Assembly: GCA_947628145.1 (NCBI GenBank)
Contig: CANQYU010000007.1
Span: 1 to 33,764, forward strand
Source of the DNA: an uncultured Bacilli bacterium
GTDB lineage: Bacteria > Bacillota_I > Bacilli_A > RF39 > UBA660
Reading direction: 5' to 3'
DNA length: 33,764 nucleotides
Below are positions 1,300 through 30,089 of the stretch, one piece after another. Both the position numbers and the translations under genes were made by a program. The first letter of the stretch is position 1. Every line of letters begins with the position of its first letter. The notes under the pieces were generated by a model. That model saw only the letters and a list, made by a program, of their open reading frames with translations. It was not told where the DNA came from and did not search any database.

Positions 1300-4200
1300 T
1301 TACCTTGTATAATCTTCTCCTTTTATTTCTTGTTTAATATTATTTATCATACTTTCAAAATCTAAACCTGCCAAGATAGAACTATTAACTAATTCTTTTA
1401 AATATATACTAAAATCTCCCTCTATATTTAACATTTTATATTTATATTCTAATAATCTTAATATTTTAGTATATAAATCTATTTTCTTTTTAGTAAATTT
1501 TTCATATTGTTTAGCAAACCATTCTCTATTAATATTTATAAATAAATTTTCTAAATAATAATAACTAGGTAAAACTTTATATTCTAAATAATATTTATAA
1601 GATTTTAATAATAAATTAATTAGTTGAACTACGACTGAATTACTTTCTTTTGTTATTATATATTGTTTTAATAATTCTTGTTCTTCTTTATCTAAATTAG
1701 TAATCAAAATACGGCCAATAAATTCATCAAAATTTTCCCTTGGAAATAGAGCATAAATATTAATTTCTTTATTAGTACATAATTTATTATATCTATTTTT
1801 TAAATTACCAACTATGTTTTTAATCTCGTCATATCTAATTTCATTTTTATAGTATAAATCAATTTTTTCTCTTTCTTCCGGGGTTAAAGCTTCTAATAAA
1901 TAATTAAGCATTTCTCTTTTTTCTAAATCATTTACGTCTTCTTTTAAAATATAATCATAAATATCTTTATAATCTTTCTTTCTTCCTCTAAAATTTTCTG
2001 TCTTATCTTTTCTTCGGTCATACTTTAATTTTAAATTAGCAATTATATTTCTAACCTCAGTCGAATTTAATTCATTTTTATAGTATAACTCAATTTTTCC
2101 TCTTTCTTCCTCGGTTAAATCATTTAATAATTGAATAAGAATATCTTTTTTTTCTAAATCATTTATATCTTTTTTTAAGACATATTCATAAATATTTTTA
2201 TAAGTTTTCTTTCTTCCACCCGATTTATTTTCTCTAATCCCTTTTACTTTAGCTTTATTTTTTCTTCGTTCATATCTTTTTCTTAAATTAAATATTATTT
2301 TTTTAGCCTCCGGGTCAGCTTGGTCATTTTTATAATATAAAGTTATTTTTTTTCTTTCTTCTTTAGATAATTCATTTAATAAATGAGTAAGGAGCATTCT
2401 TTTTTCTAAGTTATTTATATCTTCTCTTAATATATACTCATAAATATTATTATAAATTTTTCTTCTTTTTCCCAAATTACCTGCCATACTTTTTCTTCGG
2501 TCATATTTTTGTTTTAAATTTAATAATATTTTATGAACCTCCATACAATTTATTTCGTCTTTATAATATAAATCAATTTTTGTTCTGTCATCCTCGGTTA
2601 AATCATTTAATAAACGGGTAAGTATTTCTCTTTTTTCTGTATCATTGACATCTTCTTTTAAGATATATTCATAAACATTTTTATAAAGTTTATTTCTTCC
2701 TAATAGTTTATTTTTCTTATTTATTTTTCGTTCATATTTTTGTTTTAAATTTGCTATGATATTTTTAACCCCATTATAATCTATTTTATCTTTATAATAT
2801 AAATCGATTTTTATTCTTTCTTCTTCTGTTAAAGTATTTAATAATTGATTAAGGATATTTCTTTTTTCTAAATCATTTATATTATCTCTTAATATATACT
2901 CATAAATACTATCCCAGCTTCTTTTTTTCCCCCTTTTTTCTTTCTTATCAAACCCATATTTCTTTTTTAACATATTAATTCTATCATTAATTTCTATTTT
3001 AGTTTTTTCGTCTTCCAGTTGCGAACTCGCTTCCATACTATAATATTTGAGCATTTCGGAACTTTCTTCTTTAAGAATTATATCTACTAATTTTCTTCTT
3101 TCTAAATCATTGGCATTATCGCCCAAAAAAAGTTTATAAACACTCTCTTTATTTTCATTTAAAGTTTCTTCTCTTTTTAAATATCTCGAAATATAATTTC
3201 GAATATATTTTAATGCGACAAAACTCCTTTGTTTTGCTTCTATACTTGTATCTCCCCCTAAGTAATCTTTAAGACTTATTTTATTATTTTGCATTTTTTT
3301 ATAAGCTTCCGCGATTATATTTTTCTTTTCTTCATAAGGAATATTTACCTCAATAATTTGACATAAAGCCTCGATTAAATCTTCGTCATTTTGAATATCA
3401 AAATTATAATTATCAATAATTTGTCTCTTTGGTTCTTTAACTTTATCTAACTCATTATTATTATCATTAGTATCCATTAATTTTAATTTACTATATAATC
3501 TATTAAATAAAGTATTATCATTAATATTCATAGCTTTAAAACTATTATATTTTATAAAATCATTAACTAATTGATTTAATTCTCCTAAACTAAAATTAAA
3601 AACTAATTTTTGATAAATATGGGGAGCCACTTTTCCAATAACTTTTTCGTATTCCTCATGTATTTTCATAATCATTTCATAATGAGCTAAAATAAATTTT
3701 AATCTTTTAGCTATTTCCGAATTTAAAAAACTAGAAAAAGAAATCTTATTAACCATGCTTAAATCAAAACCATCCATAAAATCTAAAACATAGTATTCCA
3801 TACTCCTAACCCAATAAAGCTCTTTATCTTGGGGTTTCATTGCTAATTCTAAATCATATTTTCCATCTACTATTTCTCTTACTTGTCTATAAGAAAAATC
3901 ACTAGCCCCTAAAGCTTTTAATATTTTATTAAATAAACCATCACGGGCTTTTAATTTTTGAAAATAACTTTCATTAAAATTAATTCTATATTTTTTTAAA
4001 AAACTATAAAAATTTAATAACGTTTTTAAATATGTTTTATTAGTAATTTCTTGCTCTAAATAAGCTTCTAAAATACTTGTATTTTCTTTTGCACAATTAT
4101 TTTTTATAACTATTTCTAATCTATTTCTTAATTTATTTACAAAAGTATCTATATTAAAATGAGCTAATTCTTTTTCTACCACTATAAATAATTGTTCCCA

Positions 4201-4335
4201 CAACCGGGGACTAATATTTAAAAAACTAAATTCATTTTTTAAATCCATCATATTTTCTTCTAATATTCTTGCATCTACCATCAATATTCGTTCATTTTCT
4301 AGTAAATTTTTAATAAAATTATCCATAAAGCTCAC
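1300..4335 (-). CDS. Large repeat-containing protein of unknown function with sigma-region-4-like tandem modules
   Basis: 1011-aa ORF; about 5 well-conserved ~77-aa repeats (YEYILKEDVNDLEKR...LTEEER.KIDLYYK.E....EV.NIIANLK.KYDRRK) plus degenerate flanking copies. Confidence 0.8.
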   Translation of the reverse strand: MSFMDNFIKNLLENERILMVDARILEENMMDLKNEFSFLNISPRLWEQLFIVVEKELAHFNIDTFVNKLRNRLEIVIKNNCAKENTSILEAYLEQEITNKTYLKTLLNFYSFLKKYRINFNESYFQKLKARDGLFNKILKALGASDFSYRQVREIVDGKYDLELAMKPQDKELYWVRSMEYYVLDFMDGFDLSMVNKISFSSFLNSEIAKRLKFILAHYEMIMKIHEEYEKVIGKVAPHIYQKLVFNFSLGELNQLVNDFIKYNSFKAMNINDNTLFNRLYSKLKLMDTNDNNNELDKVKEPKRQIIDNYNFDIQNDEDLIEALCQIIEVNIPYEEKKNIIAEAYKKMQNNKISLKDYLGGDTSIEAKQRSFVALKYIRNYISRYLKREETLNENKESVYKLFLGDNANDLERRKLVDIILKEESSEMLKYYSMEASSQLEDEKTKIEINDRINMLKKKYGFDKKEKRGKKRSWDSIYEYILRDNINDLEKRNILNQLLNTLTEEERIKIDLYYKDKIDYNGVKNIIANLKQKYERKINKKNKLLGRNKLYKNVYEYILKEDVNDTEKREILTRLLNDLTEDDRTKIDLYYKDEINCMEVHKILLNLKQKYDRRKSMAGNLGKRRKIYNNIYEYILREDINNLEKRMLLTHLLNELSKEERKKITLYYKNDQADPEAKKIIFNLRKRYERRKNKAKVKGIRENKSGGRKKTYKNIYEYVLKKDINDLEKKDILIQLLNDLTEEERGKIELYYKNELNSTEVRNIIANLKLKYDRRKDKTENFRGRKKDYKDIYDYILKEDVNDLEKREMLNYLLEALTPEEREKIDLYYKNEIRYDEIKNIVGNLKNRYNKLCTNKEINIYALFPRENFDEFIGRILITNLDKEEQELLKQYIITKESNSVVVQLINLLLKSYKYYLEYKVLPSYYYLENLFININREWFAKQYEKFTKKKIDLYTKILRLLEYKYKMLNIEGDFSIYLKELVNSSILAGLDFESMINNIKQEIKGEDYTR
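1770..2920 (-). repeat. Tandem ~77-aa (~230-bp) coding repeats within the 1300-4335 ORF
   Basis: Successive DSIYEYIL, KNVYEYIL, NNIYEYIL, KNIYEYVL and KDIYDYIL units followed by (D/E)(R)xKIxLYYK and KQKYxRR segments; limits approximate. Confidence 0.8.
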
Positions 4336-14011: not shown

Positions 14012-14425
14012 TTAGTTACAAGTTTTGTCAGAATCGTTCCATTTTCTATCGCCGCCTAAATCATTACAACGCGCTTTAGCTGCATCATAACAACCACTTG
14101 GACTAGTAATACATGTTTTACAAACATTATATTCGTTTTTATAACTTGATGAAGTAAATTCTGTAACTAGACTAAATATAGCTCCAACTAAAGTTGGTAT
14201 AAAGAAAATAACTATACCAGCAATAGCTCTCATAACTAAAGATTTAACTGATTTTTTAATTTCGTCATCTTTACTTGCAACAACTGCTTTTCCTAAATCA
14301 ATAGCTCCAAATAAAATTATAATAAGTGGGATAGCTATTTTAAATACAAATAATACCCAACCTAGAATTTGCCATACTTGAGCTAAATCAGTACATACTG
14401 AAGGGTCCATTAATAACATACTCAA
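14012..14425 (-). CDS. Small two-TM protein resembling VirB2/TrbC-type pilins
   Basis: Hydrophobic segments ILGWVLFVFKIAIPLIIILFGAIDLGKAVV and AIAGIVIFFIPTLVGAIFSLV with an intervening charged loop; Cys-containing C-terminal tail. Confidence 0.6.
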   Translation of the reverse strand: MSMLLMDPSVCTDLAQVWQILGWVLFVFKIAIPLIIILFGAIDLGKAVVASKDDEIKKSVKSLVMRAIAGIVIFFIPTLVGAIFSLVTEFTSSSYKNEYNVCKTCITSPSGCYDAAKARCNDLGGDRKWNDSDKTCN

Positions 14426-14500: not shown

Positions 14501-15289
14501 CTATGTACCCATAATTAACAATACAGCTAAAACTAATAATACCATTACTCCAACTCCCGTTGTAATAAGCATACTCATAGTTTTGCTTTCCATTTTTTCA
14601 AGTCTGTTCTTATATTTTGTTTCTCTCGCTTTTTGTTGTAAACTAGATATTGTTTTAGAAAAAGCTAATAATTGTTCTTGCTTTCTCTCTTGTCTACCTA
14701 AACTCAAACGATAAAGCAACCTCATCATTCTCATGGAATCTCTAACTGGGTATTTTCTTGCAAAATCCATATAAGGCTCAATTGTATCATTACCAGCATT
14801 AATTTCATTAATTAAATCTTTTAATCCATCTTTAAATATTTCGGGCGCATCCTCTAAAGACTTACCAATTGCTACCGGAACAGTATAATGTTGAATTAAA
14901 ATTTCTAATCCTTTAAGATAATATGGAAGCATGGTGTCTATTTCATGTAAATGTCTTTTATAATAATTTTTTAAATTAATATAATCTAACTTAAAATAAC
15001 CAAAACCAACCACCAAACAAATAATTACATATGTATAAGACATATTTTTTAAAAGTAAACAAAATACTACAAGCATGACTATTAAGGTATTTTGAATTCT
15101 TTTACTAAACAAAATATCGGCATTTACTTTATCCCCATATTTAGCCCGTACATAAAAATCATAATCGCTTTCTTTAAGTCTTCGTAAATACATTTCATTA
15201 TCTGCGACTAATTTACTAATACTTATTTTTCCACTTTTAATAAATATATATATAATTATGAAGGCTACAATCGCTAATTCTATTTGCAT
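14501..15289 (-). CDS. TadC/GspF-like membrane protein
   Basis: Multi-TM protein with central cytoplasmic helical domain, positioned after a TadB-like gene; C-terminal TM. Confidence 0.6.
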   Translation of the reverse strand: MQIELAIVAFIIIYIFIKSGKISISKLVADNEMYLRRLKESDYDFYVRAKYGDKVNADILFSKRIQNTLIVMLVVFCLLLKNMSYTYVIICLVVGFGYFKLDYINLKNYYKRHLHEIDTMLPYYLKGLEILIQHYTVPVAIGKSLEDAPEIFKDGLKDLINEINAGNDTIEPYMDFARKYPVRDSMRMMRLLYRLSLGRQERKQEQLLAFSKTISSLQQKARETKYKNRLEKMESKTMSMLITTGVGVMVLLVLAVLLIMGT

Positions 15290-16185
15290 TATTCTACCCC
15301 CACATCATCATTATAATATTTCTCTCCTGTTAGAAGAAAATAACTATTTATAATTATTATAGCATGTAAAACTAAATGAACATACCATAACTGTAATAAA
15401 TCCAGATAACTATCTCTACCGAGTAATAATTGCATAACCAATACTAATAAAAATAATACTAACGCAAAAGTAATAAATTTTGTATGGAATTGTTTTCTAT
15501 CCATTTGGTCTCGATATACACCCTCAACTAAAGCATCTATATCCATACTCATATTTTCTAAAGCTTCTCCTGAATCTTTAGCACCCTCTTTTGTTATTTG
15601 TAAAAATAATTGATGCATATTTTTTACCATATAATAAGGATATTTTTGATTAAAGAACTCAATAGACTCATCAATTGTTCCATTTTGATAAGACATTTCT
15701 ATCATTGTTTTAATATCTTGTAAAACAGGGTCTTCAATTATTCCTGAATCTCGAACCCCCTCCAAAGATTTAACGAAACTTTGAGTTGTATTAAACTCCA
15801 TTATAACGTTAGTCGTATATACTTGAATTTGTTCAAAAATATATTCACTATATATTCTCTTACTTCTAAGCCAAGCTAAATATGGAATGAAAAGAATTGC
15901 TACTCCAGCGTATATAATAACCATTATCAAACTATAAAAATATAAATAAGCAATTCCTCCCGCAAGTCCTCCTAATGCTATAATTTGAATAGTATAATCT
16001 TTTATCGTATATTCTTGCTTTAATTCTTTCATTTTCGCACTTATAGTTTTAAAACTATATGGAGCATACTTTTCATAAATAAAACTTACTTGCTTTTTAG
16101 CAAATTTATAGAAATTTTCTGTTCCATTATTTTTTCGATATATAAATATAAATAAAGCTATCAATATCCATATTACGAGCTCCAT
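15289..16185 (-). CDS. TadB/GspF-like membrane protein
   Basis: N-terminal TMs, helical GspF-like domain (LEGVRDSGIIEDPVLQDIKTMIEMSYQNGTIDESIEFFNQKYPYYMVKNMHQLFLQITKEG), C-terminal TMs; adjacent to the CpaF ATPase. Confidence 0.65.
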   Translation of the reverse strand: MELVIWILIALFIFIYRKNNGTENFYKFAKKQVSFIYEKYAPYSFKTISAKMKELKQEYTIKDYTIQIIALGGLAGGIAYLYFYSLIMVIIYAGVAILFIPYLAWLRSKRIYSEYIFEQIQVYTTNVIMEFNTTQSFVKSLEGVRDSGIIEDPVLQDIKTMIEMSYQNGTIDESIEFFNQKYPYYMVKNMHQLFLQITKEGAKDSGEALENMSMDIDALVEGVYRDQMDRKQFHTKFITFALVLFLLVLVMQLLLGRDSYLDLLQLWYVHLVLHAIIIINSYFLLTGEKYYNDDVGVE

Positions 16186-16194
16186 ATTTACCTC

Positions 16195-17295
16195 CTATAA
16201 TGCTTCTATGTTTTCTGTATTACTTGGATTATTTAAATTAAATAAATCTTCTTTTAAAATTACTCCCTGAATTGCTAAATAATTTCTTAGATATTTGGTT
16301 GGATTATTTAAAGTAAATCGCCCATCCAAAGTTTTTTGAAAAATAGTATTTACCTGCGGTTTATTATCGTCATCAACATAAAATTCGCATATTTCCATAA
16401 TCTCTCTTTGAAATCTCCCCAATTTCTCACTCATATATCCTTTTACATATATTCCAATTTGTACATAACGATGAATTGTTGCCACAAATTGCTCAACATC
16501 AATATTCGATTCTATCAAACTATACATCCGCATTGGAATTAATGAAGCTTTATCGGAGTGAATTGTCGAAATAATATGGTGTCCGGAAGAAATAGAGTTA
16601 CGAACGGCCATAACAGCTTCTGCACTACGAACCTCGGAAAGTAATATCCAAATCGGATTTTGTCGCATACATGTAACCAAAACCTCAGAATAAGAAGCAA
16701 TATTGTTTGTTTTCATTGCTACAATATCCCGGTGGGGAAATATTCTATCTAAGTGTAATTCCAAAGTATCTTCTATTGTAATTATTTTTTCATTTTCTCT
16801 TGTATTACTAGCTAAATATTTAACTAATTCGGTTTTACCTGAACCAGTTTCTCCACTAACAATAATATTAGCATGACCATGAACACAATCAATTAAAAAA
16901 TCTAATAAATCTGCACTTACATATTCTTCATTAAGTAACTTATCCCTATTTAATCTAATCTTTGCTGGAGTTTTCCGAATAACAAGCGCTATTCCATTAG
17001 TTGCAATAGAATCATGAATAAAGTTAAGTCTTAATTCTGTACTTTCAGCATCTAAAAAAGGATGTGCCATATTGAATGTTTTTCCCATGACATTGGAACA
17101 TTGAAAGGCTAACTTTTCTATTAAAGCATTATTTATTTCCGGTCTATCTACTCGATAAACCCCTTTTGATAAAGACTTCAACCATACTTGTCCTCCGTTT
17201 GTATAGGAAATATCGGTTATATCATCAATATCAATAAACTCTTTCAAGGGTCCAAAATCAATTTGCGAAAATATCGCATCATTCATATATGCCAC
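16195..17295 (-). CDS. cpaF: CpaF/TadA-family secretion ATPase
   Basis: Walker A IIVSGETGSGKTELVKYLA; ITIEDTLELHL; NPIWILLSEVRSAEAVMAVRNSISSGHHIISTIHSDKA. Confidence 0.93.
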   Translation of the reverse strand: MAYMNDAIFSQIDFGPLKEFIDIDDITDISYTNGGQVWLKSLSKGVYRVDRPEINNALIEKLAFQCSNVMGKTFNMAHPFLDAESTELRLNFIHDSIATNGIALVIRKTPAKIRLNRDKLLNEEYVSADLLDFLIDCVHGHANIIVSGETGSGKTELVKYLASNTRENEKIITIEDTLELHLDRIFPHRDIVAMKTNNIASYSEVLVTCMRQNPIWILLSEVRSAEAVMAVRNSISSGHHIISTIHSDKASLIPMRMYSLIESNIDVEQFVATIHRYVQIGIYVKGYMSEKLGRFQREIMEICEFYVDDDNKPQVNTIFQKTLDGRFTLNNPTKYLRNYLAIQGVILKEDLFNLNNPSNTENIEAL

Positions 17296-17325: not shown

Positions 17326-18144
17326 TTAAGACCAATCAGGGATGTCTTCTTCGCCAATATTAATTGTATATCTTAGAATTTCTTCTTTTAATTGCTCATT
17401 AGTTACTTTAGTTTCTCCAGCCTCAGCACTATAATTAGCATTTCTTGGCATTGGAACCAATTCTACAATGTTATCTGGTAAAATAACCGCTTTGGCTAAT
17501 AAATCAAATAATCCATCAGCTTCTGGTACTCCGAATAGTAACATTGCTGGAACTCCTCCATTACCACCATAATAAATACTATTACCATTTGCATCCCGAA
17601 CATCCATTATTGGTAATTTAGAAATTAAACGGCTATATATTAATAATCCGGTATCAGATGTCATTCTTGCCCAAATATCAATATATTCTCCAGGTATCAT
17701 TGAATTACCATAAGTAGTTTGTAAATCAACTGGAATAGCAACTGGTAAATAACCATCAGGCATTCTATCAAAAACATTTGAAGCTACATCATCACATAAT
17801 TTAACTTGTTCTGTATAGAAAAAGCCACCTTCAGGAACGCTAGTTTTTTCTGCTACACAATATCGTTGTGATGTAGAAACTACTCTATTTATGTCTGAAA
17901 TTAAAGTTTTATTGTTATTTACAGTACTTCTTAATATTTCCATCGTACCAACTACATCAGATGTAATTTCTTTTGTTGATGCAATTGTCTTTTTAGCATA
18001 AGGAACCATAATTGTATCTACTGCCTTGTTTATTCGGTAATTATAACCTATAAAAAGAACAATTATACCAAGTATCACACCTAAAATAGTTACTGTATTT
18101 TTATTAGCTAAAAATCGTTTTAACGTTGCTCCTATATTTCCCAT
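17326..18144 (-). CDS. CpaB/RcpC-like protein (SAF domain)
   Basis: N-terminal TM then SAF-like VPYAKKTIASTKEITSDVVGTMEIL; located upstream of cpaF in the operon. Confidence 0.65.
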   Translation of the reverse strand: MGNIGATLKRFLANKNTVTILGVILGIIVLFIGYNYRINKAVDTIMVPYAKKTIASTKEITSDVVGTMEILRSTVNNNKTLISDINRVVSTSQRYCVAEKTSVPEGGFFYTEQVKLCDDVASNVFDRMPDGYLPVAIPVDLQTTYGNSMIPGEYIDIWARMTSDTGLLIYSRLISKLPIMDVRDANGNSIYYGGNGGVPAMLLFGVPEADGLFDLLAKAVILPDNIVELVPMPRNANYSAEAGETKVTNEQLKEEILRYTINIGEEDIPDWS

Positions 18145-18162: not shown

Positions 18163-19764
18163 TTATACATTACTCCAAAAATTACTAGATGATGAAATAT
18201 TATTGCAAGTTGTTGAATCTTGAAAATGCCACCATTCAGATGCTAAATCATTCAATTTACCAATATCAGTCATATAATGGTCTAATAATATAGCTGACTC
18301 TGTCATAGATGCAGCATAATTACCTGCACTTCTTCTTTCAGATGAAGTAGATTTTGGCGATAAATAATTACCATTGGCATAATATTTAATTGACCAAGTA
18401 CTTAATTCATGCATAGCAGATGGCATTGTTCCGCCTTTAATTGAAATATCTACAGCGCAAGCTCTATTATGAGCTGATGTAGTACCAGCTAAGAACCAGT
18501 GTGAATTTCTACTATCACCCATTGACGTGTCCATTTCCCATGTATATGCTTTACCAGAACTTCCATAACTAGTATGTAAAACATTCCAAATCTTTTTACT
18601 AGAATCTCCATCTATCATTGCTTTAAGTTTATCTCTAGCCGCCGCCGAAACTGATGTTGGTCTATAAGCATCATAAATTTGTAACGTATATCCATCACTA
18701 GATGCTGCTACAACAGCCGGTTTCAATTTACTAGCAAAATTATATCTAGCAAGAGGAAGATAATCATTGGTATATAATTTACCTAAATTTAATTTATAAA
18801 CTGTATCTTTAAGAAATCTTCCGTCTCCAGTTTCACTTTGTCGAGTTGTAACTTGATATATACTATTAGATTTATTAGTTAATGGATATTCTACTTTATA
18901 TCCACTAAGATATTCTTGTAAATTAACAGCTATATATTTCTTATCAATCCAACCACATTCTCCATCACTAGTTTTAATTTCAAAACTACTAGATTTTGAC
19001 TTACCCATTCCAACAATTGTCACAACTTCTGGACTTGTTGAATATGATGTAGTTTTTGAATCTCTAAGTACTGAACTTAAATTTTCATTTGTATAAATTT
19101 TTGCAGGTTCCATGATGTAACCTTTCATATTAGTTGCATCAATATTTGTAGAGGTTCCTGAGCAAGAAGCTGGAGTTACTTCTCCAGAGCCTCCAGGAGT
19201 GGTTCCACCCGGTGTTGTAGTTCCACTTCCGCCTGTACCAGTGCCAGTACCACTAGGAGTGGTTCCACCTGGTGTTGTAGTACCGCCACCACCTGTACCA
19301 GTTGAGCCTCCAGGAGTTTGAGCCCCAGAAGAGCCACTAGTACCTGGCGTATCAGTTGTTTCCACTTCTCTAGCATGAATTTGAATTACTGCATCATATC
19401 TTGTCGTTAAATCAAATCCCTCTGATACAAAATTAGTTCCACTGCTACTTTTTATTTCTACACTAACTTTAGGAGGAGCTTCATATAAACCATAGAAACT
19501 AACTTTATATGTATCTGCTCTCCCCATATTCTCTGAAAGCATTCTAAGAAATACTTCCATAAATTTTTCTTTATTCATTTTTACTTCATTATAGTCACGA
19601 TAGTAACCATAATCAACAGCTTCTAACATTGCCGCTTCTGTAACTTCTTTTACGCTTAAGTAATCTTGAGTTGTATTTGTAGTAAGAGCTTGAATTGGTA
19701 TCATAATTCCTACAATAGCAACTCCAAAAACTACTAGCCAATAACCCCAATATGATGTTTGCAT
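18163..19764 (-). CDS. Pilin-like N-terminal TM protein fused to an SH3-like domain and a VanX/M15-type D-Ala-D-Ala peptidase domain
   Basis: N-term MQTSYWGYWLVVFGVAIVGIMIPIQALTTNT; Gly/Thr/Pro linker; SH3-like segment AKIYTNENLSSVLRD...GECGWIDKKYIAV; M15 motifs IYDAYRPTS, TSAHNRACAVDIS, EWWHF. Confidence 0.8.
   Translation of the reverse strand: MQTSYWGYWLVVFGVAIVGIMIPIQALTTNTTQDYLSVKEVTEAAMLEAVDYGYYRDYNEVKMNKEKFMEVFLRMLSENMGRADTYKVSFYGLYEAPPKVSVEIKSSSGTNFVSEGFDLTTRYDAVIQIHAREVETTDTPGTSGSSGAQTPGGSTGTGGGGTTTPGGTTPSGTGTGTGGSGTTTPGGTTPGGSGEVTPASCSGTSTNIDATNMKGYIMEPAKIYTNENLSSVLRDSKTTSYSTSPEVVTIVGMGKSKSSSFEIKTSDGECGWIDKKYIAVNLQEYLSGYKVEYPLTNKSNSIYQVTTRQSETGDGRFLKDTVYKLNLGKLYTNDYLPLARYNFASKLKPAVVAASSDGYTLQIYDAYRPTSVSAAARDKLKAMIDGDSSKKIWNVLHTSYGSSGKAYTWEMDTSMGDSRNSHWFLAGTTSAHNRACAVDISIKGGTMPSAMHELSTWSIKYYANGNYLSPKSTSSERRSAGNYAASMTESAILLDHYMTDIGKLNDLASEWWHFQDSTTCNNISSSSNFWSNV
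19196..19315 (-). repeat. 60-bp coding minisatellite (2 units) in the Gly/Thr/Pro linker
   Basis: AGGAGTGGTTCCACC(C/T)GGTGTTGTAGT... recurs at exact 60-bp spacing (GGTTCCACC at 19201 and 19261). Confidence 0.75.
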
Positions 19765-19779
19765 ATTCTCACTCCTCTC

Positions 19780-22700
19780 CTATTTCCAAGATGGGCCAAC
19801 CATAGATTTTTCGTCTATACCACTATCCCATTTTACGAAATATTCGCCTTCGTTACCATTTACATCTGTTCTTGTACGATAATTTTGGTCAAAAATTAAA
19901 CTATTACTATCAACAACATTTGACCCAAATTTACCATCAATCAAATCACTAATAAATGAACTATAACATGCAGCTTCTTCATATCCACCTAAAGCATAAC
20001 AGTCTAAAGTTTGATTAGAATATCCACCAATATTAGAATAAAGTGAATTATATCTTCTAATTTCTTGCGATACAGATGGAGTAATTGTAACACTTAAAAC
20101 AGGAGTTGTATTATATATAGCATTTCCATTGCTCTTATCACTATCTTCAATTTCACTTCTTGTAATTAAGCCTTTAGCATTTACCCAGTTATAAGAATCT
20201 GTTCCATTAGGGAACATATTATTTAAGGTTATTGTTCTCTCAAAAAGTGAAGTACCAGCATCAGCATCATATATACAACCTATTCCTACACAGTCTGCAA
20301 TACAATCTGTTCCATCACATATTGCATCACAACCAGGTCCTATACAATCAGATATACATTTGTCAGTACATGTATCATCAAAATCGCATACCAATCTATC
20401 TTGGTCAGTTATAACCATATTTACTAAATATGCACAATTATATAATAATGGTGAATTAGCCCCAACTAAAGCTGTATTAGAACCGGCATATCTTCCTAAA
20501 GCTCCATTAGCTGTATCATAAAATTCTCCCAAATTATTAATCTTTACAACATATTTATAAATACCTCTTGGTGTACTTAATGATACCGGTAATTTATTTT
20601 CTAGAGGAACATTGCCTTCATTCTCTGAATTTTCAATTTCACCAGAAGGATAAGCATTATAGAATAATGTTGATGGTCTATAATTTCTTGAAATTGTTGT
20701 AGAATATTTTTTATATCTTGCTATATAAATATTTTGACTACTTTGTGTCTTTGAATCACTACATCCATTAGTATCACAATATACAAAGTTTCGTTTTTCA
20801 GTAGGTATCAATGTTGATGGTGTAGCAGAGCATCCTGTATAATTTCCATTACTTAAATCTCCTGTACAATACCATGAACTAAAAGTTTGATTTCCACCAT
20901 ATTCATCCATTCTACCTAGCAAACCAAATTTAGTTAAATATTCTTCTTGATAATCATAAGTAACTTCTGGGTCATATTTAATATCTGACTCCCAAGTGGA
21001 ACATTTATTAAATTCACTTATTACCCTTTTATAAGCATCTTGCGCGTCAGTTAAATCTTCTCTTGCATCATCAAGTGCATCTCCATATTTACCATTGTTA
21101 TAATCATCTTGATAGTCTGTAGCACTACAACTTCCAACAGTTCCATTACAATTACAATCATTTCCTGTTACTGAGCCAAAAGTCAAAGTTTCTGGTTTAG
21201 CTTCACATTTTACTATTCCATTATTAATACTACAAACAGTATAAGTTATCTTTTTTTGGGCTACATAAGCAGAGCACTCTGTTTTGCCACTTGCTACACA
21301 TGTAGTTGTTTTACATTTTTCTTTGTCTTCTTCTTCACACGGAGTTTTTTCGGTAGTTTTAGGAGTACAACCCGTAGAATATGAGCCAGAAACAGAATGT
21401 GCATTTGTAAAAGGAGTATTTACTATTGCATTTAATCTTGACCAAGTATTAAAAGCTGTTACCATGTTTTCTTGAGCTCTTTCAATATCTATTTCAAATT
21501 TTTCTCTATTTATAGTATTTGTATAACATGTTTTAGTTCCTTCAATAGAAGCTCTAAATGTAAAGTATCTACCGGCATTTACTAATTTTGCTGTAGGCAT
21601 AGTCATTGTATAGTCTTCTTTACAAGACACAGTACAATAACTATTTTCTTTCATGGAATTTAAAGTAAATGAATTTCCATTTTGGTCTTTAACTCCTTCA
21701 ACATTTGAATCATCTTTTACCTCTGGTGTACCATTTTCTGCAGCTTGAATATCTATTTTGTCTACAAAACATGTCTTAATATCATTTGAATTTTCTATTC
21801 CGTTAATATTAACTTGATGGTCATCTTTATCTGATACTAATAAAGTTTCTCCAATTTCATCACAACATTCAAATACATCTAAATGAGTATTACAAGTTAC
21901 TTCACATAACTCTGCTCTTTTATCACAATCTGGATTGTTAGGGAAATTTTCACAAACAACATCTAAATAAGAACAACCACAATTAGATTCTTTTAAATCT
22001 TGACAAGCTGGGCCAGTTACACTATTAGTATCTTTAATTTCTTCTTCGCAAGCTCTTTCTAAATCTTCACATGTACATACTGAAATTAAAGCTATTTCTC
22101 CTGAAACTGAATAATCTTGTTCAGTAGGTTGAGATGTAGTTTTACCTTTATAAGCCATAAATCTTTGTTTAGAAGAAGGGTTATTTTGGTTTCTCCAAAC
22201 TACAGCCAAATCATTTGAAAATTCATTAGTTGTTGTTAACACATTTGTACTGTAATTTATATTATATTTCATTGGTTGATTTCCACATTTTATTTTGCCA
22301 TCAATTCCTGTAAAATTAGCTACAATTTCTACTGTAGTTTGAGATGTAAAGCTTCGTCCTGCAAATAAATTTTTACCAATAGAAGAAGAACAGTTACCAT
22401 CACAAATAACGCTTCCATCTATTGTAATCTTTGTTATAGTTGGTTGAGCATTTACTCCGTATTTATCTAATGTATCTGCATAAGTAATATTTTTAATTAC
22501 AAATGAAGGCTCGCTAATAGTATCAACATTTTTAAAAATTAAAGTATGAGTACTATTCTTAGAAAGTACAGTTTGTCCTCCAACTACTGTTTCTGTAGCG
22601 TTTAAATCTGCTACTGCCTTACTTTGCTCTAACTCTGGAGCATTTTCTAATCCTTTAAGGTATTGAGCTGCATCTTCTAAAGCTGTTTTAACTATATTTT

Positions 22701-23478
22701 TAGCTGGAGCTAAACAACTAGCTGTGCCATCAGAACACTCCCAACCATAGTTTTTACCTTTTGTTTCTATTTCGGTTAAACTTTCGGTACTATTTCCCGT
22801 TTCTCCTCGAATAAATTTATAGTTTTCAGCCATTTGAGCATCATAATCAGAACCTTTTGTATCTACTAACCATTTATATAAAAGGCCATCATATGAATGT
22901 TGAAGAGCATTTTTTTGTTTAACACTTAAATTACTATTATCAAAACCTACATTTAACCATCTAAAAGCCGCATTAATTACCCGAATTGCTGTACTTTTAT
23001 AAAAATAAGTTTTATAAGCTTCCGAATTTCCACTCTTTATAGCATCTATGTTCGCATCAGCTCCTTTTGTTAAAGCTGACATTAACATATAATCTGCTAC
23101 AAAATAACCACTTTTAGGAGCTACTGGTTTTAAATCTTCTTGACCTGTAAATAAAAATCTTCCGGCATATAACTTACTTGTAGATACTAAAGTTGCATCT
23201 AAGCAATAAATAAGTAAGTTCCCAGAATAATGAACATAATAACCATTATATGAAGTCTTTGTGCCACTAGTTTTATCTACATACCAAGCTCCAATATCAT
23301 CTGTATCAAAATGAGCAGAAGACTTAGGCATAGTTGAAGAAACACCTGACTCATATTTCATTCCTGTTGCTGTTATATTTTCTTTAGTTAATTTAACTGC
23401 AAAAACATTTTGCATTCCTGCAAAACTTAACACAGCCATTAAAATTATTACTATTAATTTTTTATTTATATTTTTCAT
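19780..23478 (-). CDS. Large secreted Cys-rich protein encoded in the Tad-like locus
   Basis: Signal peptide; N-terminal domain with IYCLDATL and KSTAIRVINAAFRWL; Cys clusters CTCEDLERACEEE, CGCSYLDVVC, CTDKCISDCIGPGCDAICDGTDCIADCVGIGC. No LPXTG-like signal or C-terminal TM seen. Confidence 0.75.
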   Translation of the reverse strand: MKNINKKLIVIILMAVLSFAGMQNVFAVKLTKENITATGMKYESGVSSTMPKSSAHFDTDDIGAWYVDKTSGTKTSYNGYYVHYSGNLLIYCLDATLVSTSKLYAGRFLFTGQEDLKPVAPKSGYFVADYMLMSALTKGADANIDAIKSGNSEAYKTYFYKSTAIRVINAAFRWLNVGFDNSNLSVKQKNALQHSYDGLLYKWLVDTKGSDYDAQMAENYKFIRGETGNSTESLTEIETKGKNYGWECSDGTASCLAPAKNIVKTALEDAAQYLKGLENAPELEQSKAVADLNATETVVGGQTVLSKNSTHTLIFKNVDTISEPSFVIKNITYADTLDKYGVNAQPTITKITIDGSVICDGNCSSSIGKNLFAGRSFTSQTTVEIVANFTGIDGKIKCGNQPMKYNINYSTNVLTTTNEFSNDLAVVWRNQNNPSSKQRFMAYKGKTTSQPTEQDYSVSGEIALISVCTCEDLERACEEEIKDTNSVTGPACQDLKESNCGCSYLDVVCENFPNNPDCDKRAELCEVTCNTHLDVFECCDEIGETLLVSDKDDHQVNINGIENSNDIKTCFVDKIDIQAAENGTPEVKDDSNVEGVKDQNGNSFTLNSMKENSYCTVSCKEDYTMTMPTAKLVNAGRYFTFRASIEGTKTCYTNTINREKFEIDIERAQENMVTAFNTWSRLNAIVNTPFTNAHSVSGSYSTGCTPKTTEKTPCEEEDKEKCKTTTCVASGKTECSAYVAQKKITYTVCSINNGIVKCEAKPETLTFGSVTGNDCNCNGTVGSCSATDYQDDYNNGKYGDALDDAREDLTDAQDAYKRVISEFNKCSTWESDIKYDPEVTYDYQEEYLTKFGLLGRMDEYGGNQTFSSWYCTGDLSNGNYTGCSATPSTLIPTEKRNFVYCDTNGCSDSKTQSSQNIYIARYKKYSTTISRNYRPSTLFYNAYPSGEIENSENEGNVPLENKLPVSLSTPRGIYKYVVKINNLGEFYDTANGALGRYAGSNTALVGANSPLLYNCAYLVNMVITDQDRLVCDFDDTCTDKCISDCIGPGCDAICDGTDCIADCVGIGCIYDADAGTSLFERTITLNNMFPNGTDSYNWVNAKGLITRSEIEDSDKSNGNAIYNTTPVLSVTITPSVSQEIRRYNSLYSNIGGYSNQTLDCYALGGYEEAACYSSFISDLIDGKFGSNVVDSNSLIFDQNYRTRTDVNGNEGEYFVKWDSGIDEKSMVGPSWK

Positions 23479-24239
23479 GCTACTCTCCTTCTTCTTACCA
23501 TAATTACTATTGTAGTAGCAACCCCTGCTCCAACAATTATACCACCAACTATAATTGCTATTTTATTCTTTCCTAAAAAATTTTCAATTTTGTCAGTAAC
23601 ACTATTGTTTCCCTTCTCTTCTTCTTCTTTTTCTTTAGCTGCTATCTGATTGCTTATCTTATCATACACCTCATCAAAATTATAATCAATATCAAAATCG
23701 ATAAAAGTTTTGCATAAATAATAACTTGATAAGCCTTCGCATATGCTATATCCACTATATTCATTATATTTTGGTTTTCTATAATTAATAGTTCTTATTT
23801 TCGTGCTTCCACAATCAACATTTTCAGCATATATATCAATTGTATAATCATTTAATTCTGTAAAATTTTCATCTTTTATTGTAATTACACCATTATTTGT
23901 ATCTGCATGATGAAAAGTTTTTGAAGCCCCAGATATTGAATCTTTTACCACCACATATAAGTCTTCTGATACATTGTTAATATAAATATTAAAATAATAG
24001 TTATAAGGAACAAAATTCTCTATCTCTTCTTCAGTCAACCCATCTGGTGGAGTATAATCTTCATCATTTTCTTCTTCTTTTATTAAATCATAACTTGTTG
24101 ATACTTTATAGGCATTTTGCCTAACTTTATTTAACTCGGATGTCTCGCACACTGCAAACGCACTATTTACCCCTATTATAAAAGTTAATAGAAAAGTAAA
24201 CAGTAACTTTATTTTTTTCATAGTATACACCAACCTCAT
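23475..24239 (-). CDS. Surface protein with signal peptide and C-terminal TM anchor
   Basis: MKKIKLLFTFLLTFIIGVNSAFAV signal; C-term KIAIIVGGIIVGAGVATTIVIMVRRRRVA; overlaps the next gene by 4 nt. Confidence 0.75.
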   Translation of the reverse strand: MRLVYTMKKIKLLFTFLLTFIIGVNSAFAVCETSELNKVRQNAYKVSTSYDLIKEEENDEDYTPPDGLTEEEIENFVPYNYYFNIYINNVSEDLYVVVKDSISGASKTFHHADTNNGVITIKDENFTELNDYTIDIYAENVDCGSTKIRTINYRKPKYNEYSGYSICEGLSSYYLCKTFIDFDIDYNFDEVYDKISNQIAAKEKEEEEKGNNSVTDKIENFLGKNKIAIIVGGIIVGAGVATTIVIMVRRRRVA

Positions 24240-24325
24240 AATTCAAATTATAGCATGTCCTCTAGCATTTTTCAAGTACTATTGCCGAAAAAAAGACCCC
24301 CATAGTTCTCTTAAAAAAACCTGAT

Positions 24326-28454: not shown

Positions 28455-30089
28455 ATGGTGGCTAATGTGAAAAAGATTTTAATAAATATTAAAGATAACA
28501 CAATTATCTTTGCTTATAAAACCAATAATAGTACAATTAATAATGAACTTATTAACACTAATATTATTAGTAATAATGAATTAGTTTTTAGTGATGTCTA
28601 TATAAAAGAAAATAATAAAATTTTATCGGCATTTATAAATGAATTATCTTTACAGTATCATATAAATAAAATAGTTATTTCTAAAAATTCTCTAGCCCCT
28701 TTAATTTTAAATTTATTTACTAAAGCCTCTAGTATTACTAGTGTTTATTTTAAAAGTGACGAACCACTTAGTTATACTATTTGTGAACAATTAATATCTT
28801 TAAAAACTATCAAAGAAATTAATTGTTATACTCTCCAACCCTTTATGTTAGAATTATTAGATAAAAATAATATTACTTGTGATACCCGTAGTGAAATTCT
28901 TTATTTAAGTAATTTTATGGAAACTAATAATTTAATTAGATTTTCTAATATTTATTATAAAACCAATATTCGTATAAATACTCCTTTAACTTTAGAAGAT
29001 TTAACTGATATTGAAAACTTTTTAAAAATAAATAAATATCTTAAAATAGTTCATATTAATACTTTAAATATTAAAGAATTAGAACATCTTTTAAAACTAT
29101 TTATTAAATATGAACGTCATTTAAAAATAGTTATTCATGATAATATTAATGATGAAAAAACTATTAATTATTTAAAAACTCTTAATAAAAAATATAAAAG
29201 AAAATACCATCTTTATTTAACTTTAGAATATTCTAAAGAATATCTTAATCAAAATATTTTTAAACAAACTATTATTAATACTTTAAAAGTATGTGGTTTA
29301 ATTATTTCTAGTTTAGTTATTTTAGTTGTAACTTATATTGGTGTTTCTAATTATGTTGCTCTAAAACAAGTAAATAAAATTAAAGACGAATTAGCCGAGG
29401 TTATAACTACGACTGACCCTACGCCTTTTATTGAAGCTAAAAATAAAGAAAACGAAAAGAATTATGAAATCACCACTCCGGAAGAAGAAACTCCTAATGA
29501 ATATCCTATTAAAAAAGTAACTAATGAAAATTTAGCTTCTCTTCTTACCGTTAATAATGATGTCGTCGGTGAATTAAAAGTTAATAATACTAATATTGAT
29601 TATCCTGTTGTTCAAACTGATAATAATGATTATTATTTAAAACATAATATTAATCGCGAAAATAATGCTAACGGATGGATATATATGGATTATCGTAATG
29701 ATGCCATGAATTTACATAGAAATACTATTATATATGGTCATAATATGTATTATAGTGGTGTTATGTTTGGAACTCTTTATAAAACGGCAACTAAAAATTG
29801 GTATACTAATCCCGAAAATCAAATTATAACTTTTAATACTTTATATGAAAAAATGCAATTTCAAATTTTTTCTATTTATCGCGTTCCCAAGACTAATGAT
29901 TATTTAAAAGTTTACTTTAATGATAATCAAGAATTTCTTGACTTTATTGATTTAGTTAAAAATCGTAGTATTTATAATTTTAATGTTGAGGTACCAGTGG
30001 ATGCGAAAATTCTTACTTTATCTACTTGTTCTAATAATGGTACTAAAAGATTAGTTATTCATGCTAAATTAATTACTCCTGAAAATTAG
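28455..30089 (+). CDS. Class B sortase with a long cytoplasmic N-terminal extension
   Basis: Catalytic domain VGELKVNNTNIDYPVVQTDNNDYYLKHNI..., IIYGHNMYYSGVMFGTL, LTLSTCSNNGTKRLVIHAKL; TM about 29283-29360 preceded by ~270 residues without a signal. GTG 28467 with SD GGTGG is a plausible alternative start. Confidence 0.9.
   Translation: MVANVKKILINIKDNTIIFAYKTNNSTINNELINTNIISNNELVFSDVYIKENNKILSAFINELSLQYHINKIVISKNSLAPLILNLFTKASSITSVYFKSDEPLSYTICEQLISLKTIKEINCYTLQPFMLELLDKNNITCDTRSEILYLSNFMETNNLIRFSNIYYKTNIRINTPLTLEDLTDIENFLKINKYLKIVHINTLNIKELEHLLKLFIKYERHLKIVIHDNINDEKTINYLKTLNKKYKRKYHLYLTLEYSKEYLNQNIFKQTIINTLKVCGLIISSLVILVVTYIGVSNYVALKQVNKIKDELAEVITTTDPTPFIEAKNKENEKNYEITTPEEETPNEYPIKKVTNENLASLLTVNNDVVGELKVNNTNIDYPVVQTDNNDYYLKHNINRENNANGWIYMDYRNDAMNLHRNTIIYGHNMYYSGVMFGTLYKTATKNWYTNPENQIITFNTLYEKMQFQIFSIYRVPKTNDYLKVYFNDNQEFLDFIDLVKNRSIYNFNVEVPVDAKILTLSTCSNNGTKRLVIHAKLITPEN

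Follow-up and report, generated by a model that had tools for sequence, protein, structure and literature searches.

A probable modular Tad/Flp-type minor pilin presenting a VanX-like peptidase in uncultured gut Bacilli

Modular type IV pilins have been described in S. sanguinis, where PilB bears a vWA and PilC a lectin domain, and the available portions of the published survey of such pilins name S74 and M26 as peptidase modules, with M15, M23 and CHAP unmentioned in these portions (PMC8179133, PMC9934059). Tad pili with exchangeable minor-pilin tips are represented by the Kil system of Myxococcus with its TadE/TadF/TadG tip complexes (PMC12075869). In gut Gram-positives, the accessible part of a gene-context study placed DUF5411, a CpaF-type ATPase and a GspF/PilC-type membrane protein into an operon regarded as secretion-related (PMC9523054), and therefore the link between DUF5411 and a pilus or secretion operon had already been made. 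The literature searched, which lay mostly outside subscription papers, contained no minor pilins carrying enzymes in the way described below, a result that does not prove their absence. The gene analyzed here, from an uncultured Bacilli bacterium of the gut, is likely to encode a modular minor pilin of the Tad/Flp type presenting a peptidoglycan-active enzyme.

Domain layout of the fusion protein

The window (the whole 33,764-nucleotide stretch analyzed) includes an ORF at 18163-19764 encoding 533 aa in a single frame without interruption, with aggagaggag, a strong ribosome-binding site, immediately 5' of its ATG. The boundaries given in the initial annotation were exact, and the strand, absent from it, is minus. 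The combination that it had read from this one ORF (hydrophobic helix, Gly/Thr/Pro linker, SH3-like segment and M15 peptidase) was confirmed by profiles and models, resulting in the following features (evidence in brackets):

18163-19764, minus: DUF5411 - linker - SH3-like - M15 (VanX-like) fusion, 533 aa (sequence, profile, model, ribosome-binding site)
19372-19764, minus: DUF5411 module, residues 1-131, pilin-like, a hydrophobic N-terminal helix followed by three beta strands (PF17424 and AlphaFold2 model)
19621-19755, minus: long N-terminal helix, residues 4-48, first half hydrophobic (model; alignment column counts)
19165-19371, minus: Gly/Thr/Pro/Ser low-complexity linker, residues 132-200 (sequence)
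18922-19125, minus: SH3-like domain, about residues 214-281 (profile, Pfam matches of homologues, model, Foldseek)
18166-18921, minus: M15/VanX-like zinc peptidase domain, about residues 282-533 (Pfam, family profile, model, Foldseek)
18658-18672, minus: DAYRP, residues 365-369, with R368 at the position of VanX R71 (Y, R and P invariant, n=23; VanX alignment)
18448-18477, minus: SAHNRACAVD, residues 430-439, with zinc ligands H432 and D439 (H and D invariant, n=23; VanX alignment)
18223-18240, minus: SEWWHF, residues 509-514, with catalytic E510 and zinc ligand H513 (E and H invariant, n=23; VanX alignment)

Residues 1-130 matched PF17424 (DUF5411) with E 5e-47 and 159.6 bits (cutoff 30), and the family named in the initial annotation was thus correct. 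Its AlphaFold2 model (mean pLDDT 79.8) consisted of one 45-residue N-terminal helix followed by short helices and three strands, and a PDB fold search with this model produced nothing significant among the solved structures (best E 0.12). A profile comparison with the locus's own TadE-like family gave no sign of homology (hhalign probability 1.8%), and one with the Flp-like family detected no homology either. The Glu+5 of a canonical prepilin cleavage site (class III signal peptide) was absent from the DUF5411 alignment, in which position 7 was occupied by Gly in 69 of 83 sequences and by Ala or Thr in the remainder. Since neither a structure match nor TadE/Flp homology was obtained, the term pilin rests on context and topology: what stood of the pilin-like N-terminus proposed initially was the operon setting and the topology of the model, and what did not was a significant match to a solved structure. 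The linker differed in length between homologues, and no tandem repeats were found when looked for in its DNA.

VanX is a cytoplasmic enzyme cutting free dipeptides, with Arg71, His116, Asp123, Glu181 and His184 as catalytic or zinc positions. The M15 family (PF01427) was matched by the window protein at E 3.4e-5 and 24.2 bits, under the curated cutoff of 27 and weak for a single protein, while all ten members of the fused set matched it with a best E of 5.7e-14, and L106 reached 43.6 bits. The family profile led to VanX 1R44 (E 5e-12), the only PDB peptidase matched by sequence over the catalytic domain. With the AlphaFold2 model of the SH3-M15 part (mean pLDDT 85.6, pTM 0.87), VanX was also the top match in Foldseek (E 3e-6, TM 0.62 on the target, identity 18%). 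The segments DAYRP, SAHNRACAVD and SEWWHF aligned with the VanX segments bearing Arg71, His116/Asp123 and Glu181/His184, respectively, the HxxxxxxD and EWWHF motifs noticed earlier being H432-D439 and E510-F514. As judged from the 1R44 alignment and from 23 modules, the zinc and catalytic residues do align with those of M15/VanX, as the first reading of the gene had it. In the 23 aligned modules, both fusion types included, Tyr-Arg-Pro, His, Asp, Glu and His were invariant, indicating that the site is under constraint.

For the SH3-like segment, Pfam SH3_3 was matched by two of ten homologues (E 1.4e-6), the family profile matched the SH3 structures of Src, Fyn and Abl with E 0.007-0.09, the AlphaFold2 model was all-beta across the segment, and SH3 structures were also among the Foldseek matches. 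Homologues, profile and model thus give moderate support to a predicted bacterial SH3-like domain, as first proposed, the support being modest for the window copy.

The Tad-type operon

The fusion gene is part of a compact minus-strand operon with intergenic gaps of at most 30 bases or short overlaps. The gene order is 254-aa anchored protein, 1232-aa Cys-rich protein, fusion, CpaB-like, TadA-type, TadB-like and TadC-like, after which a two-helix protein and then tRNA-Asn follow:

24247-24275, minus: promoter-like site TTGAAA-17-TATAAT, immediately 5' of operon gene 1 (consensus match only)
23475-24239, minus: 254-aa protein with N-terminal signal and C-terminal membrane anchor, operon gene 1 (sequence; kept in related loci)
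19780-23478, minus: 1232-aa large Cys-rich secreted protein with signal peptide (no Pfam family)
17326-18144, minus: CpaB/RcpC-like protein (TIGR03177 E 0.0024 and PF16976 E 0.019, both weak; position conserved in related loci)
16195-17295, minus: TadA/VirB11-type ATPase (PF00437 E 1.9e-25; TIGR03819 E 3.5e-28)
15289-16185, minus: TadB-like membrane platform protein (named by position and conservation; no family match)
14501-15289, minus: TadC-like membrane platform protein (named by position and conservation; no family match)
14012-14425, minus: 137-aa two-helix membrane protein (PF18895 T4SS_pilin E 0.006, weak; conserved in the locus)

The names TadB, TadC, TadZ, Flp and TadE were assigned by position and general features, not by Pfam matches. 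In other genera of the family these genes are followed by those for two small Flp-like pilins, two TadE-like proteins and a TadZ-like protein, and in the genus of the window organism this second half of the apparatus is located elsewhere in the genome, on another contig. In the window genome, that other contig encodes two Flp-like pilins, two TadE-like proteins and one TadZ-like protein; with both operon halves and a prepilin peptidase present, a whole Tad-type apparatus is encoded. The second TadE-like protein of this genome (L216:6512-7498, contig C4) ends in a Listeria-Bacteroides repeat (Flg_new, E 2.9e-14), and hence the pilus may carry an adhesive module besides the enzyme. Related loci have between one and four copies of the two-helix protein at 14012-14425.

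In nearly all complete loci examined, DUF5411 is located between the giant protein and CpaB-TadA-TadB-TadC. Of 193 genomes belonging to the same order as the window organism, 156 contained it, mostly as solitary copies of about 130-167 aa, and sampling across the phylum found it almost only in the family of this organism; frames of at least 200 aa were present at 24 of the listed DUF5411 places. DUF5411 is a core part of the Tad-type apparatus, and the N-terminal module of the fusion is accordingly a conserved component of the Tad operon rather than an ordinary signal anchor. One record titled Ruminococcus sp. (L131) bears the locus of this family, and the DUF5411 labels in Clostridia in databases may partly belong to such misnamed genomes.

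Several observations concern the remaining genes. The 1232-aa protein adjoining DUF5411, which may include an unrecognized adhesin domain, has Cys92 and Asp94 (YCxD-type) invariant in 12 homologues. A thioester domain, suspected from the YCxD, was rejected, with no Pfam match in the N-terminal 300 residues of the 12 homologues; the only TED_2 match in the giant proteins was sub-threshold (L110). Elsewhere in the window, a germination-protease-like gene is present at 528-1256 (PF03418, E 2.1e-32) in this reduced genome of 1.06 Mb, suggesting spore-related genes in the lineage. A 1011-aa protein at 1300-4335 had no Pfam match at 1e-4, and a 544-aa protein at 28455-30089 has a C-terminal sortase domain (PF04203, E 8.4e-14) preceded by about 370 residues with no Pfam match.

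Distribution and exchange of the SH3-M15 module

The relatives found by similarity were metagenome-assembled uncultured Bacilli, from animal sources where the titles show one. The SH3-M15 module, in any form, was present in 41 of the 385 genomes searched. Of the 30 best loci, 17, with the window among them, had it intact on DUF5411 (17 of the 385 genomes); it was on a protein with a single N-terminal helix in four and on a giant secreted protein in one, and was free-standing or otherwise attached in eight. The fusion architecture recurs in many genomes and is therefore neither a product of chance nor an assembly artefact. Most homologous Tad-like loci, the check on which had been proposed at the outset, have the N-terminal domain alone; SH3-M15 is accessory, not core, to DUF5411.

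The single-helix carrier was identified as the TadE-like protein of the locus (profile E 8e-49 for L167). This second fusion is encoded downstream of TadC in the same operon, where DUF5411 is plain. Including L175 from the named collection, five genomes have SH3-M15 on the TadE-like protein, and none of the loci examined had the module on both proteins. The M15 module on this second pilin-like protein of the same operon is a new observation. A search for phage origin recovered one relative only of the module from IMG/VR.

Individual loci deviate from these two forms. A giant secreted protein near DUF5411 bears SH3-M15 close to its own N-terminus (L110:4389-9008), and DUF5411-SH3-M15 genes form a tandem pair in L141 (303-1892 and 1917-3614). 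A DUF5411-M15 gene with an internal deletion (L120:8311-9117, contig shared with L138) has lost the Arg, His and Asp motifs and kept EWWH; in L120/L138, which belong to the same genus, the sequence is that of a decayed enzyme in a retained operon.

Other C-terminal domains were found at the same two places. DUF5411 is combined with M23 in L169 (E 8e-17), with a CHAP-like domain in L178 (E 0.004, below the Pfam cutoff, with Cys and His motifs visible) and with a YkuD-like domain in L204 (E 0.001, below the Pfam cutoff, with an SxGCxR motif visible). The TadE-like protein of L168 carries CHAP (E 3.4e-15), and its nearest row in the TadABC tree, L107, has M15 at the same place. Elsewhere the two proteins have the non-enzyme extensions SpaA, Big_2 (Ig-like) and Flg_new. 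Such variety indicates that the pilin-like proteins behave as carriers with an exchanged load, of which enzymes predicted from their sequences to be wall-active are a frequent part on both.

When the TadA, TadB and TadC sequences of 87 loci were concatenated for a tree, the DUF5411-M15 state changed at least 14 times on it, nine of the changes being forced by well-supported branches, a number which is not a rate because the locus sample was enriched for fusions. Single fusion origin with plain vertical descent was rejected as incompatible with this tree unless many losses had occurred. The window and L137 are 92% identical in TadABC, 75% in DUF5411 and 34% in the M15 module, and a sister position of their M15 modules was rejected with p-AU 0.008, a somewhat optimistic value since the pair was picked after viewing the trees. 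The converse case is L130 and L056, with 49% identity in DUF5411 and 60% in M15. A single clade of the five TadE-like M15 modules was not rejected (p-AU 0.38), and several independent jumps to the TadE-like protein are therefore not claimed. Modules have been swapped between very similar machines, with a fast turnover of the load, which suggests that the pili of related species have repeatedly been re-tipped with wall-acting enzymes.

Proposed function and comparison with known systems

The DUF5411 part would act as a pilin-like module, inserting into the membrane with its C-terminus outside and joining the minor-pilin complex of the filament, and the SH3-M15 part would be held extracellularly on the flexible linker. 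The SH3-like domain may bind peptidoglycan, the VanX-like zinc site may cut D-amino-acid bonds of the stem peptide, and extension of the filament would carry the enzyme outward, probably at the tip. From the operon, the conserved Cys residues and, by analogy, the modular-pilin and Tad-tip precedents, we infer the outside orientation and incorporation into the filament; the tip position and peptidoglycan as the substrate are likewise presumed. Each of the 26 genomes of the genus that were searched had penicillin-binding proteins, and Ddl was found in eight of 12 relatives of the same genus, indicating that peptidoglycan exists and that the cell makes a cross-linked wall. D-Ala-D-Ala ligase had no match in the window assembly (about 92% complete) or in four genomes of the same genus, which may reflect incompleteness.

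As to the target, the walls of neighboring cells or niche-specific surfaces have slightly better than an even chance, and the cell's own wall during extrusion falls somewhat short of one; the outward target (neighbor cells or shed wall material) is slightly favored because the patchiness and swapping fit it better. A broader and less likely reading is that a lineage of gut Bacilli employs its Tad pili as enzyme-tipped, contact-dependent wall tools, on which two minor pilins would repeatedly receive and exchange different peptidoglycan enzymes (M15, M23, CHAP, YkuD) suited to the walls of neighboring bacteria.

It is rather doubtful that the pilus-borne enzyme serves specifically to loosen the cell's own peptidoglycan for the exit of the filament. 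A tip pilin would meet its own wall first, peptidoglycan is present in the cell and the enzymes replacing M15 are likewise wall-active, but in the majority of related genomes this operon has DUF5411 in its plain form and M15 is missing altogether, the fused state changes often on the TadABC tree, and in L120/L138 the domain decayed with the operon kept. With the machine of most relatives lacking M15 and the repeated changes, M15 is no general requirement for assembly, so the idea in the initial annotation that the enzyme opens the cell's own thick wall during assembly is so far unsupported. That SH3-M15 mainly ties the base or tip of the filament to peptidoglycan, with catalysis secondary, is unlikely: an SH3-like domain is indeed present, DUF5411 in L204 carries a domain resembling YkuD, a bond-making family, and Ig-like, SpaA and Flg_new modules occur on the same proteins in other genomes, yet binding alone would not lead one to expect Arg, both His, Asp and Glu to be invariant in 23 diverse sequences. 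Least probable is an ordinary membrane-anchored housekeeping D,D-peptidase, not borne by a filament and with DUF5411 as its signal anchor, for which it would speak that the family includes free-standing relatives of the module with a membrane anchor (L100, L102-L105), but DUF5411 is conserved in the operon with or without the enzyme, the module shifts to a second pilin-like protein encoded in this operon, and there is one carrier per locus.

Under the preferred reading of an enzyme-presenting minor pilin, DUF5411 would function as a carrier pilin, a role open to testing. The modular pilins known so far are mostly adhesins, and here wall-active enzymes recur on pilus-operon subunits within one family, with one or the other of two subunits in a machine bearing them. 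How pili handle thick walls, or act on the walls of other cells, becomes directly testable.

Among the known enzymes, VanX/DdpX (M15D; 1R44) is the best PDB match of the module both by sequence and by fold, and its five positions Arg71, His116, Asp123, Glu181 and His184 are kept in the window protein. In contrast to VanX, the window enzyme lies outside any vancomycin resistance cluster, is predicted to be extracellular, carries an SH3-like domain and is fused to a pilus-operon protein, and the overall identity is low (18%). With the operons of the gene-context study, as far as its accessible part describes them, the window operon shares the set of DUF5411, ATPase and GspF/PilC-type genes and differs in the enzyme fusion, none being reported there (PMC9523054). 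Similarly to the Tad tips of Myxococcus Kil, the system combines small Flp pilins with larger minor pilins whose C-terminal domains are variable and exchangeable (PMC12075869). The Kil and TadE/TadF/TadG systems, however, belong to diderm hosts and the word peptidoglycan is absent from that text (PMC12075869), and DUF5411 had no sequence link to the TadE-like proteins of the locus, with which the comparison was made. Modular type IV pilins, to the extent covered by the available portions of their descriptions, resemble the window protein in having an N-terminal pilin module and a linker-borne C-terminal functional domain in a monoderm host, while the system described here differs from them in its Tad/Flp-type machine, its predicted peptidoglycan-active enzyme and the presence of DUF5411 instead of IPR012902.
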